From assembly GCA_024451685.1 (NCBI GenBank), contig JAMXCW010000008.1:1-64000 (forward strand): a stretch of 64,000 nt of DNA, given 5' to 3'. Under the pieces are notes generated by a model, which saw nothing but the letters and a program-made list of their open reading frames with translations, did no database searches and was not told where the DNA came from. Position numbers and translations under genes: made by a program. Numbering within the stretch: the first letter of the stretch is position 1; each line of letters opens with the position of its first letter. Below, piece after piece: positions 6,025 through 64,000 of the stretch. This stretch comes from Candidatus Bathyanammoxibius amoris. GTDB lineage: Bacteria > Planctomycetota > Brocadiia > Brocadiales > Bathyanammoxibiaceae.

Positions 6025-7992
6025 ATGGGTTTGAGTGTATCGGACAGAGGGGAGAGACGCTTCCATGGCCTGGCATGCCTTGCCATAGTCCTTACCGGGC
6101 TTGTCGTCTACTCGAACACCATCCATTCCAGCTTCCACTTTGACGACTATCATAGTATTGTAGATAATGCCGCAATAAAGGACGTTCGCAACATACCACA
6201 GTTTTTGTTTACGCAGCGCGGGGTGGTTCAAGCCAGTTTTGCGCTCAATTATTATTTATCGGGATTGTCTGTAGAGGGCTACCACTGGACAAACATCTGC
6301 ATCCACCTGCTGAATGGTGTGTTGGTGTACTTCCTTGCGATAATTATCCTCAATCAATACATATCGGAAACTCGCATCAGAGGCACTTCTCGAGTGCCTG
6401 TCCTTGCTCTGTTTGTTGCCCTTTTGTTTATTACATCCCCTGTACAGACGCACACAGTTAATTATGTAGTGGAGAGAAATGGTGAGCTGGCCTCAACTTT
6501 TTATCTCTTATCCTTTGTATTCTTTGCAAGAGCTGTTTCTATAAGCAGTGTCAGCATACCATTCTACGTGTTGAGCATTGTTTTCTTCCTTATCAGTACC
6601 TACTGCAAGGAGTTTGCATATACGAGCTTTATAATGATGTTTTTGTTTTACCTATGCTTTGTGTCGAGGGACTGGCATGGTTGGCCACGTAGTCTTAAAT
6701 TGGTGCTTCCATATATTGCCTGGGCTTATATGCGCACAAACGGGATGGAGACAATTCCACCGCCGCTTGGTCTAAAAGCAGCTAAAGTAGCTGACGTAGA
6801 TACGACAACTGCTGCTATAGGGCAACCCTGGGAGTACCTGTTAACTCAGACAGTTGTTATTATGGAATATATTAAACTACTTGCGTGGCCACTGCCTAGC
6901 AAGCTGAACATAGATTACGACGTTACGCTGGTAACCACCATCTGGGAGCCCTCCACGGCAATCTCCGCAGTGGTCACTATCGGCCTATTATGTTTTGCGT
7001 TTATATTTCTCAATAGAGCAAGGCTTCTGGCATTCTCTATACTCTGGTTTTTAGTGGTATTATTACCCAACAGCGGCTTCTTCCCACAGGGCGTGCGGGA
7101 GCTTATGGTCTGTTACAGGCTGTATCTTCCGAGCCTTGCATTTTATCTACTTCTTGTTGTGGGTGTTCATAAGGTATTTCGTTACGTGGGTGAATGGAAG
7201 GGAGTAGAACCAAGACGGCTTTATCTGGCAGAACTGGCAACACTTATCGCCATAGTCTTTTTCTACGGCATCTGCACATACGGACATAATAAAGTGTGGA
7301 AGACAGAGGTTTCACTGTGGGAGGATACGGTAAGAAAATCTCCCAATAAGATAAGGCCTCGCTATAATCTCGGCAAGGCCTACGAGTTGGATGAACTGCT
7401 GGATAAGGCCGAGGTAGAGTACATGAGATGTATAGAGATGTTTAAAGCGACTCCACGTTCTAGGCGACATTTAGGCATGGGGTCTTATTACCATGCCAGC
7501 CTTGCCCTGGCGGGTATTTATTCGCAGGGAGGCAAACATACCGAGGCCATAGACCTGTACAGGGAGTGCCTAAAAACTGTTTATTGGAAAGCCGACGGGC
7601 ATAATAACCTGGGTCTCACCTACTACCGGGCGGGACTTTTAGAGGAAGCAGAAAGGGAATTCAGACTTGCTATAGAGCTTGACCCAGGGCTTAGTATTGC
7701 ATACGAAAATCTAGGTGCGTTGTGCGAGGTAAAAGGGGAGATGAATGCGGCCCTGGCGGCCTTTACGGAGGCTGTAATGGCCGGCCCCAAAAATGCAAAG
7801 GCGCACATAAGATTAGGGCAGCTATGGTGGAATTACAAAAAGAGGCCCGACATGGCACTCATGCACCTGAACGCCGCCCTAAAGTCGGACTTAGACAAAG
7901 AGACCTTGAAAAGGGTCTTGCTAGCGATAGATATTATAAAGAAACAAGCATCACAACTACTTAGACCTCACACAGAAAAGGACCCTTGGTAG
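6025..7992 (+). CDS. TMTC-like membrane protein with C-terminal TPR repeats (copy 2)
   Basis: Paralogue of the preceding gene with the same order: N-terminal helix, FHFDDYHSIVDN acidic motif, many membrane segments and then about four TPR units. The N-terminal segment (VYSNTIHSSFHFDDY) matches copy 1 almost exactly, whereas the middle has diverged strongly and the DNA there is richer in A and T, suggesting a conserved active-site region or gene conversion. The ATG at 6025 is preferred over in-frame ATGs at 5998 and 6001 because a GGGGGGAG ribosome-binding site lies about 7 bases before it. It follows copy 1 by 68 bases and is probably cotranscribed. Confidence 0.75.
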   Translation: MGLSVSDRGERRFHGLACLAIVLTGLVVYSNTIHSSFHFDDYHSIVDNAAIKDVRNIPQFLFTQRGVVQASFALNYYLSGLSVEGYHWTNICIHLLNGVLVYFLAIIILNQYISETRIRGTSRVPVLALFVALLFITSPVQTHTVNYVVERNGELASTFYLLSFVFFARAVSISSVSIPFYVLSIVFFLISTYCKEFAYTSFIMMFLFYLCFVSRDWHGWPRSLKLVLPYIAWAYMRTNGMETIPPPLGLKAAKVADVDTTTAAIGQPWEYLLTQTVVIMEYIKLLAWPLPSKLNIDYDVTLVTTIWEPSTAISAVVTIGLLCFAFIFLNRARLLAFSILWFLVVLLPNSGFFPQGVRELMVCYRLYLPSLAFYLLLVVGVHKVFRYVGEWKGVEPRRLYLAELATLIAIVFFYGICTYGHNKVWKTEVSLWEDTVRKSPNKIRPRYNLGKAYELDELLDKAEVEYMRCIEMFKATPRSRRHLGMGSYYHASLALAGIYSQGGKHTEAIDLYRECLKTVYWKADGHNNLGLTYYRAGLLEEAEREFRLAIELDPGLSIAYENLGALCEVKGEMNAALAAFTEAVMAGPKNAKAHIRLGQLWWNYKKRPDMALMHLNAALKSDLDKETLKRVLLAIDIIKKQASQLLRPHTEKDPW

Positions 7993-8037
7993 AAGGTCGT
8001 TCGTCTTTGCGAGTTAATATGCTTCCATGACTGGATG

Positions 8038-61447: not shown

Positions 61448-61771
61448 TTAGTGTGTCCCTTTAACAATACTAAGGCCGACTACACCTAGTATAATCAGCC
61501 CGACAGAGGCGAGTTTTATCGCGCCCGCCGGTTCCTTAAACCACAATATGCCTATTACCACTATTAGTGCCGTTCCCACACCAGACCAGACGGCGTATGC
61601 GACACCTATGTCAATGCTCCTGAGCGCCAGCGTGAGCGCGCCGAAACTCAGGCCGTAGAAGACAAAAATCAGGATAGAGGGCAATAACTTTGTAAATCCC
61701 TCCGAGAATTTCATCGAGGTGGTGCCGAACACCTCAAGGGCGATGGCGACCGCAAGAAACAGCCAGTTCAT
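61448..61771 (-). CDS. Small multidrug resistance (SMR) efflux protein
   Basis: Four-helix inner-membrane transporter of 107 residues. The essential glutamate is in IALEVFGTTSMKFSEGFTKL, and AYAVWSGVGTALIVVIGI is the second signature. The sequence after the glutamate (GTT.MK.S.GFT) resembles the EmrE/QacE quaternary-ammonium branch more than the guanidinium (Gdx) branch. A GGAGG ribosome-binding site lies 9 bases upstream. It works as an antiparallel dimer or with a partner; only one gene is present. Confidence 0.9.
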   Translation of the reverse strand: MNWLFLAVAIALEVFGTTSMKFSEGFTKLLPSILIFVFYGLSFGALTLALRSIDIGVAYAVWSGVGTALIVVIGILWFKEPAGAIKLASVGLIILGVVGLSIVKGTH

Positions 61772-61955
61772 TGTAATACCTCCTTCCAGGTGCTTACCGG
61801 TTAAACGTTTATGTTACAGGCAACGCCCCAATGCGCGGGGCATATTTTCTCCCCCTCCGGTCAGGAGAGGGAGGAACAGAACGGGCAGGGCCCGCAGAAG
61901 GAAGAGAAAGTAGGTGTACCTATGTCTATGCAGTCCACAAATCCCCACAAGCAGT

Positions 61956-61984
61956 TTGCCAAATCCGGGAAAGTATGGTATACT
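61956..61984 (+). promoter_or_regulatory. Strong sigma-70 promoter of the small RNA
   Basis: TTGCCA (61956-61961), a 17-base spacer and TATACT (61979-61984). Transcription should start near 61991. Confidence 0.7.
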
Positions 61985-61990
61985 TGTTAT

Positions 61991-62182
61991 GGATTAAGGA
62001 AGTGGGAACCAAGGGTGTACAGAATTAATCCCGCAGCCGATAGCCCTTACAAGGGCAAGTGGGTGCAAATACCCACAAAAGTATTGAAGCTGTACTTCGG
62101 GCCATTGTATTGTAGCGGGCAATACAAAGTACACCTTTGGCTCCCTTGTTTTTTTGCCGCAAAGCGATTTGCGGCTTTTTTT
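61991..62182 (+). ncRNA. Free-standing structured small RNA, class unknown (6S-like considered)
   Basis: About 190 bases between a strong promoter and a strong intrinsic terminator with no open frame longer than a few codons from the predicted start. A 17-base-pair closing helix joins 62004-62020 with 62129-62145 (one A-C mismatch, one G-U pair). Inside it are hairpins GCCCT/AGGGC (62043-62056), GTGGGT/ACCCAC (62059-62076) and TTGTATTG/CAATACAA (62105-62127). The loop of the last one, TAGCGGG, can pair with CCCGC at 62030-62034 as a pseudoknot. Length and closing helix recall 6S RNA, and the segment AGCCGATA also occurs in E. coli 6S RNA, but the branched interior is not the usual 6S shape. 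No gene follows on this strand, so it is not a leader. Confidence 0.72.
62156..62182 (+). terminator. Rho-independent terminator of the small RNA
   Basis: GCCGCAAA - GCGA - TTTGCGGC forms a perfect 8-base-pair stem, followed by seven T residues (62176-62182). Confidence 0.9.
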
Positions 62183-62290
62183 ATCCGCAGACTCAACCCC
62201 GCTGGCTGTTAACAAGTGATTAGAAAACTTTTCCCTTCCTTAACATGTGCAGCCCCGGCCTCCAAAGACGCCGGGTTCCGTCCGCAGGGC

Positions 62291-64000
62291 CTATGAGGTC
62301 TTTTTCTTCCTCTTAGTCTTTTTCTTTCCCTTGGTTTTTCGCGGTGCCGGCTTCTGGGGTTCCAGCCTCATCTCCGCTATTTCGGGATGTATGCCGGTCA
62401 TATCGTTTATGACCTTTGAGGGCTCGCCTGGGGTTGAACGTATATTGATGTCTCTCTGCGGGAACGGTATCTCGATGTTGTGCTCGGCGAAGAGCTTTTC
62501 TATGGCAAAATTCATTTCACTCATGGAATGCCATCTCTCACCGCCATCGTTGGCCCAGTAAATCAACTCAAAGTCATAGTAGCTGTCTCCAAACGCATTG
62601 AAACGCACAAAAGGTTTCGGGTTCTTGCGTACTCTCGGATTTTCCGCGGCTATCTTAACCAGCAAGCTTTTTACAAGCGGCACATCGGCCCCATAGGCGA
62701 CTCCAATCTTTAGTTTTGCTCTTACCTTGGCGGTTGGTTGACTCTGGTTTTGTATGTTGCCGTCCATCAGCTTAGCATTAGGCACGACTATATACACAAG
62801 TTCCGGGGACAGTAGTGTCGTGCTCCTTGGGCCAATTCGTTTCACCGTGCCTCTGATGTCATTACTGATAAATACGAAATCTCCAATCTTGATGGGCCTT
62901 TCAAACATAAGGATAATACCGCTGAGGAAGTTGTTTACGATGTGCTGCATACCGAAGCCGATTCCGATACCAAGTGCCCCCGCGAAGAAGGCAAGACTTC
63001 TTAAAGGTATCCCCGCTATGCTCAAGGCAAAGAGAATCGAAAAGGCGATGATGGTATAAGAAACAACGGCGGAAATGGTAGCCCTCATGCCCTGGTCCAG
63101 GCTCAATTTAGCTAATAACCTGGAATCGATAAGCCTCTTTACCAACACCGCAGCAAAGAAGAAGATAACGACCAGTATTATGCTTACTATAATGTTGAGG
63201 GGCGTTGTAGATGCCTCTCCGCCCATGCGCAGCTCATATATCAAGATGAACCATATTGTCCCCAGGACGCGGTAGACTTCCGTGGCGAAAGACCTTAGTG
63301 GTACGGGAGCAGCCGGTGACGCCGAGACCTGCACAAACGTGGACGCCACCAGGCTTACGACTACCATAATTGTGACTATGATCGAGACATAATCGATAAT
63401 GCCCCTGCTGACCTTAAACTCCGCTTCCTGTCCTTCTGCCAGCCTTTTGCGGGCCAGTCTGTCAACCGCGAAGACAGTTACCAGCTTTCTTACCACTGCC
63501 ACGGCAACGACTGCCACCGTACAACCCACTATGGTATCGAGAAGGCGGGTGGTCATTGAGATGTAGCCAAGGGTGTCGACAAGTATAAGTGATACAAGAA
63601 ACGCTATAATCAGCGGGTGAGCTACGTGTATACAACCCCTCTGGAACTTCTTCAGTTTTGTCGGAGGCGGGGGCAATAAATCAAGGAATACCCGCTTTGG
63701 GGCGACAAACCATATAAACAGGCCAAAGACAACAATAAAATATACCCTCCACAGCATCTGGTGGGCGCTTGACCCAAAAGACTCGACGACTCCGGTTATC
63801 GTCAAATAGACCGCTGAAAACAGAAGGATTATGTGGAAGGTCTGGTAACTGTGCCGGGCGAGGGAGGGGGGTAAATTCAGGAGGGGCCTGCCAGTCTCGC
63901 GCTGTTTTACCGCCTCAACCATAAAGCCGTGCAGAAGCATATAAACGGAGAATACAACAAGTCCGCTCAGAATAGCCTCAATAAAGGGGCCTTTGAGCTC
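62291..64000 (-). CDS. MscS-family mechanosensitive channel, 5'-truncated by the window
   Basis: Membrane protein with at least 569 residues in the window; the frame continues without stop to the right edge, adding a hydrophobic segment (LSGLVVFSVYMLLHGF) before the first internal ATG at 63940. Several N-terminal helices precede the MscS core: LAFFAGALGIGIGFGMQHIVNNFLSGIILMFERPIKIGDFV is the pore helix and beta-domain start, and VPNAKLMDGNIQNQS follows. It is a larger MscS relative and should open under membrane tension to release solutes. The tail is very basic (KTKGKKKTKRKKK). Confidence 0.9.
   Translation of the reverse strand, partial: ELKGPFIEAILSGLVVFSVYMLLHGFMVEAVKQRETGRPLLNLPPSLARHSYQTFHIILLFSAVYLTITGVVESFGSSAHQMLWRVYFIVVFGLFIWFVAPKRVFLDLLPPPPTKLKKFQRGCIHVAHPLIIAFLVSLILVDTLGYISMTTRLLDTIVGCTVAVVAVAVVRKLVTVFAVDRLARKRLAEGQEAEFKVSRGIIDYVSIIVTIMVVVSLVASTFVQVSASPAAPVPLRSFATEVYRVLGTIWFILIYELRMGGEASTTPLNIIVSIILVVIFFFAAVLVKRLIDSRLLAKLSLDQGMRATISAVVSYTIIAFSILFALSIAGIPLRSLAFFAGALGIGIGFGMQHIVNNFLSGIILMFERPIKIGDFVFISNDIRGTVKRIGPRSTTLLSPELVYIVVPNAKLMDGNIQNQSQPTAKVRAKLKIGVAYGADVPLVKSLLVKIAAENPRVRKNPKPFVRFNAFGDSYYDFELIYWANDGGERWHSMSEMNFAIEKLFAEHNIEIPFPQRDINIRSTPGEPSKVINDMTGIHPEIAEMRLEPQKPAPRKTKGKKKTKRKKKTS

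Follow-up and report, generated by a model that had tools for sequence, protein, structure and literature searches.

The gap between an SMR and an mscS-type gene in the window, that is, the whole 64,000-nucleotide stretch of Candidatus Bathyanammoxibius amoris DNA analysed here, appears from sequence comparison to carry a member of a genuine, previously undescribed RNA family with a very narrow known distribution, whose ordinary kind would be that of a stand-alone structured small RNA. It has a promoter, a 3′ end, no conserved reading frame and a structure supported by homologues, its transcription being predicted. A preliminary description of the locus had proposed an orphan structured small RNA or an undescribed RNA class, and this proposal is borne out by homologues that keep both the promoter and the helices. 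As judged from four sequences from two genomes, the family comprises so far four dispersed copies, two per genus, in two genera of a single host family known only from metagenome-assembled genomes (MAGs), which probably belongs to the anammox-containing planctomycete order. To our knowledge, few small RNAs of their own have been described in Planctomycetes, particularly in the anammox order, and a literature search for Brocadiales and small RNA found no paper.

The Predicted Gene

The plus strand of the SMR/mscS gap holds a promoter-like site (61956-61984), a strong fold and an intrinsic terminator (62156-62182; Table 1). The near-consensus promoter reported earlier is indeed present: TTGCCA-17-TATACT agrees with the consensus at 10 of 12 positions, has TG ahead of the -10 and is the sole promoter-like site found on either strand of 61700-62400, where 0.4 would be expected. 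The predicted transcript (61991-62182, 192 nt) folds at -76.0 kcal/mol with a z-score of -5.52, a stability reached by 0 of 200 shuffles, and its core (62004-62146) has a z-score of -6.94. Both the long closing helix, of 4+12 pairs within this strong fold, and the terminator hairpin followed by seven T residues were found as described. The assertion that the transcript lacks a reading frame fails literally, as a 133-codon frame (61811-62212) crosses it. However, a Pfam search with this frame gave no match and stops break it in all three homologues, so that the frame is due to chance; no reading frame common to the four RNA copies was found.

Table 1. Features of the window RNA locus (window coordinates).
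Feature	Sequence	Coordinates	Strand	Remark
SMR (small multidrug resistance) transporter gene		61448-61771	-	left neighbour of the RNA locus
Promoter	-35-like TTGCCA (61956-61961), 17-nt spacer ending TATGG, -10 TATACT (61979-61984)	61955-61985	+	
Predicted 5′ leader	GGATTAAGGAAGT	61991-62003	+	+1 inferred from the -10; neither length nor sequence conserved
P1 closing helix, 5′ strand	GGGAACCAAGGGUGUAC	62004-62020	+	near-invariant
P2, 5′ strand	CCCGC	62030-62034	+	own-partner pairing best among copies
P3 hairpin	GCCCU-UACA-AGGGC	62043-62056	+	GCCC/GGGC hairpin in 4/4 copies
P4 hairpin	GUGGGUG-CAAA-UACCCAC	62059-62076	+	GUGGG/CCCAC in 4/4 copies
P5 hairpin, tentative	AAGUAU-UGAAGCU-GUACUU	62079-62097	+	appears with P2 imposed; similar in the source genome's second copy
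P2, 3′ strand	GCGGG	62115-62119	+	pairs with CCCGC, nested within P1
P1 closing helix, 3′ strand	GUACACCUUUGGCUCCC	62129-62145	+	U-rich run directly after
Intrinsic terminator	GCCGCAAA-GCGA-TTTGCGGC + TTTTTTT	62156-62182 (hairpin 62156-62175 + T7)	+	not kept as such in other copies
mscS-type channel gene		62291-	-	next gene 3′ of the RNA, convergent

Homologues and Their Promoters

A covariance model built from the window RNA sequence alone (R1) was searched against 98 genomes. Besides a second copy in the source genome (G000:C4:49667-49808; 56.7 bits, E 2.8e-11), it found a pair in G004, a MAG of another genus of the same family (Rifle-aquifer Planctomycetes), on G004:C113 at 36.8 bits and on G004:C70 at 28.5 bits. 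The closing-helix pattern matched once over genome contigs, at the G004:C113 copy of Planctomycetes bacterium RIFCSPLOWO2_12_FULL_50_35, and not at all over viral contigs, and BLAST with 61950-62190 against 39 relatives, phages and plasmids returned the self-match only. A promoter-including model of all four sequences (R2) revealed no further copy among the 39 relatives even at lax limits, the extra low-score matches being promoter-only or unrelated, and over 392 genomes of the phylum under a strict filter (E<=0.001) it found its own copies only. Two further congeneric genomes, 82-90% complete, yielded no copy, and this speaks against an essential role.

The promoter, TTTGC-N16/17-GGTATACTT, is kept in all four copies with 65-84% identity. 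Each of the two genomes, G000 and G004, contains the pattern TTTGCN(15-18)GGTATACTT at exactly two positions, both of them RNA copies; elsewhere among the relatives it precedes or falls within unrelated genes. Over viral contigs, the promoter combined with GGGAACCAA gave two matches, each within a phage coding gene.

Other promoter-led stretches were seen in relatives. Three genomes of genus g2 have ATGTGGTATAATTATT promoters at position 1501 of loci L064, L065 and L067, with mutually near-identical sequences downstream (GGAATAAAAGGGCG..). At locus L059 (G002:C43), in which a 5S rRNA at 92-202 is the only Rfam-recognised part, an apparently structured intergenic stretch with no Rfam match lies behind TTGTGGTATACTT at about 1440-1623 on the minus strand, and this is possibly a further undescribed RNA. 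In a genome of the same genus as the source, locus L075 (850-1200, minus strand; G001:C57:972-1094) has a consensus promoter (TTGACA..TGTGGTAGACTT) and a stretch of about 60 nt, with three possible hairpins, that is enclosed by a closing helix of 19-22 bp (GCGGAAGGCGAACAAGGGGTGT / ACACCTCTTTGCCTTCCGC). A T-run comes next, and nearby genes resemble subunits of a phage terminase. The architecture of this element is similar to that of the window RNA, a likeness scored at 15 bits that may or may not reflect homology.

Conserved Structure

The conserved block starts at the -35-like TTTGC and stops where the closing helix P1 ends. Identity between copies is 71-94% in the P1 strands, 42-51% in the interior, 24-43% in the 3′ flank and 17-39% in the leader; the upstream flanks share a single weak 30-nt match (E 0.03), between both G004 copies. 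P1 consists of 16 pairs (4+12), with an A opposite C or U following the fourth pair. Compensatory changes, which the preliminary description had proposed to look for in the closing helix, are present: two P1 pairs have changed on both sides, as has one P4 pair (U-A to C-G). They are few in P1 because P1 hardly varies, and for the same reason part of its conservation could serve DNA or duplex sequence. Over the four copies 96% of the paired cells can pair, as against at most 54% when the partners are slid by 1-3 columns, and the fold z-scores of the four cores range from -3.8 to -6.9.

The inner helix P2 differs in sequence in each copy: CCCGC/GCGGG in the window, UUUACCU/AGGUAGG, AAUCUUC/GAAGGUU and UUUUUGGC/GUCAGAAA in the others. 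In every copy the 5′ strand finds its best partner in the 3′ strand of that same copy, the true assignment being the best of 24 for the four copies; the single-copy shuffle p values of 0.03-0.14 combine by Fisher's method, by hand, to about 0.0075. P2 belongs to the minimum-energy fold in all three homologues, and in the window copy it lies 2.6 kcal/mol above the minimum. These comparisons suggest, with moderate confidence, that P2 is kept by pairing and not by sequence. The words CCCGC and GCGGG had been noticed as a possible loop pseudoknot; they are there and they pair, but in the conserved fold they probably form a nested helix, not a pseudoknot. The minimum-energy interior computed for the window copy, which competes with P2, may be an alternative fold.

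A competing fold between GGATTAA at the predicted 5′ end and TTAATCC had also been suggested. The two complementary words exist, but the homologues do not support such a fold (Fisher p 0.16), cross-pairings between copies outscoring own pairings. A switch between the leader and the P2 5′ strand common to the four copies, attractive by eye, was rejected on both the shuffles and the cross-pairing.

Genomic Sites and Dispersal

The four copies occupy four different sites, SMR/mscS, ispD/EamA, TPR/glycosyltransferase 9 (GT9) and TPR/PHP, and all stand alone, with a convergent next gene 3′ in each case. Could the element be a cis-regulatory leader or attenuator of a neighbouring gene? An intergenic location and a terminator would suit such a role, but the downstream gene lies on the opposite strand in all four copies and the neighbours differ, which makes it barely credible. 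In G000, where it contains the RNA, the EamA-ispD gap measures 430 bp, as against 46 bp in G004, where it does not; conversely, the PHP-TPR site contains the RNA in G004 and is a tight gap in G000, and the TPR-GT9 site, filled in G004, is empty in G002. This synteny of filled and empty sites indicates that the RNA gene has been gained or lost several times as a small cassette. The window copy and the TPR-GT9 copy of G004 share a wider gene neighbourhood, within which their positions differ. No RNA copy was found at the apgM- or ispD-adjacent places checked in relatives, nor adjoining the mscS orthologues that some of them possess. At locus L122 of the source genome, a long repeat-rich frame (YYENGQLK-type, MORN-like; 6833-8032, minus strand) lies between the TPR and GT9 genes, occupying the site where G004 carries its RNA copy.

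Such dispersal invites comparison with a small non-autonomous mobile element of the MITE type, in which P1 would be the terminal inverted repeats and the RNA would be incidental or serve transposition. This would account for copies at different sites with empty counterparts in other genomes, as well as for an 8-bp direct repeat, ATTTCCAC, that flanks one copy at the junction. However, the conserved unit reaches about 50 bp past P1 on one side only, taking in the promoter, so that the inverted repeats do not mark its ends; flanking repeats at the other three copies are no longer than 7 bp, and 8-mers turn up in about 10% of shuffles; and the copies, only two per genome, are old and internally diverged, yet their promoter and helices are kept. 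We therefore consider a MITE-like element unlikely.

Relation to 6S RNA

A divergent 6S RNA had been put forward for the locus. Like 6S RNA (RF00013), the window RNA would be a stand-alone RNA of about 180-190 nt with its ends paired in a long helix, and it contains the word AGCCGATA. The covariance evidence contradicts the proposal: the whole window gave no match in Rfam 15 at gathering thresholds (4227 families), the RNA locus, searched at E<=10, had no RF00013 match and merely hits to other families that are due to chance, and the three homologues were equally negative for RF00013 at E<=10. The source genome has its genuine 6S gene on another contig, at G000:C21:3428-3611, where the score of 47.7 bits exceeds the gathering score and no such promoter as is seen at the RNA copies lies upstream. 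Of 38 relatives, 33 likewise have a 6S gene matched by RF00013. Moreover, the four copies fold into a long helix, P1, leading through P2 to a junction with several hairpins, and not into a rod with a large central asymmetric bubble. That the window RNA is a second, divergent 6S RNA binding RNA polymerase is accordingly very improbable.

Possible Functions

We favour, at about an even chance, a new family of trans-acting structured small RNAs of ~155-190 nt, which probably serve as a protein-binding platform. The non-coding RNA would be made on its own from the dedicated promoter and act in trans; the double-stranded P1 and the adjacent hairpins would form the platform; and the RNA would work by sequestering or scaffolding, functionally much as 6S or CsrB do, and not through a base-pairing seed. 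A platform is preferred to a seed because the conserved positions are mostly in helices (P1 and P4) and the unpaired parts vary.

Alternatively, an unpaired or transiently open segment might pair with mRNAs, with P1 merely stabilising or terminating the RNA. Trans-acting small RNAs typically have such a size, a promoter of their own, a terminator and a stand-alone setting, and several paralogues per genome are common among them. A base-pairing regulator is nevertheless somewhat doubtful, as the best-conserved positions are in P1 and P4 and not in loops, and the leader and interior are just 17-51% identical between copies, so that no common seed is visible. A bolder version of the protein-binding RNA is also conceivable, if quite speculative: a lineage-specific class, possibly titrating a global regulator or RNA polymerase, which moves into new convergent intergenic sites as a cassette of promoter plus RNA. 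If this were true, RNA gene and mobility would be one unit.

Whichever function applies, the family is now defined by its promoter, boundaries, structure and four sequences, and is ready for probing in metatranscriptomes. Its dispersal to new sites together with its own promoter raises a further question: how do such RNA genes move?

Comparison with Other Known Systems

Besides 6S RNA, from which the family differs in covariance, in multi-hairpin junction and in promoter, three kinds of known elements bear comparison. Bacterial Y RNA (YrlA) likewise has its ends paired in a helix and internal hairpins, and the comparison was prompted by a T-arm-like hairpin of the window RNA, GTGGG-TGCAAAT-ACCCAC. 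A Y RNA acting with Ro protein was rejected: the TROVE/Ro protein (PF05731) is absent from all 19 genomes searched (the source and 18 relatives) and was found in one control genome, ARAGORN made no tRNA-like call on the window RNA, and the T-loop-like word is missing from the other copies. Candidate structured RNAs from comparative genomics, for example a set of 104 motifs (PMC2864571), and those in Rfam are similarly intergenic, structured and of unknown function, but the present family matches none of the 4227 Rfam families at gathering thresholds. With MITEs and dispersed palindromic repeats it shares dispersed sites and inverted end sequences; unlike MITEs, it carries a conserved promoter outside the inverted sequences and has an inner helix that is probably kept by pairing, and a flanking repeat longer than 7 bp, as a target duplication might leave, is seen at one copy of the four.
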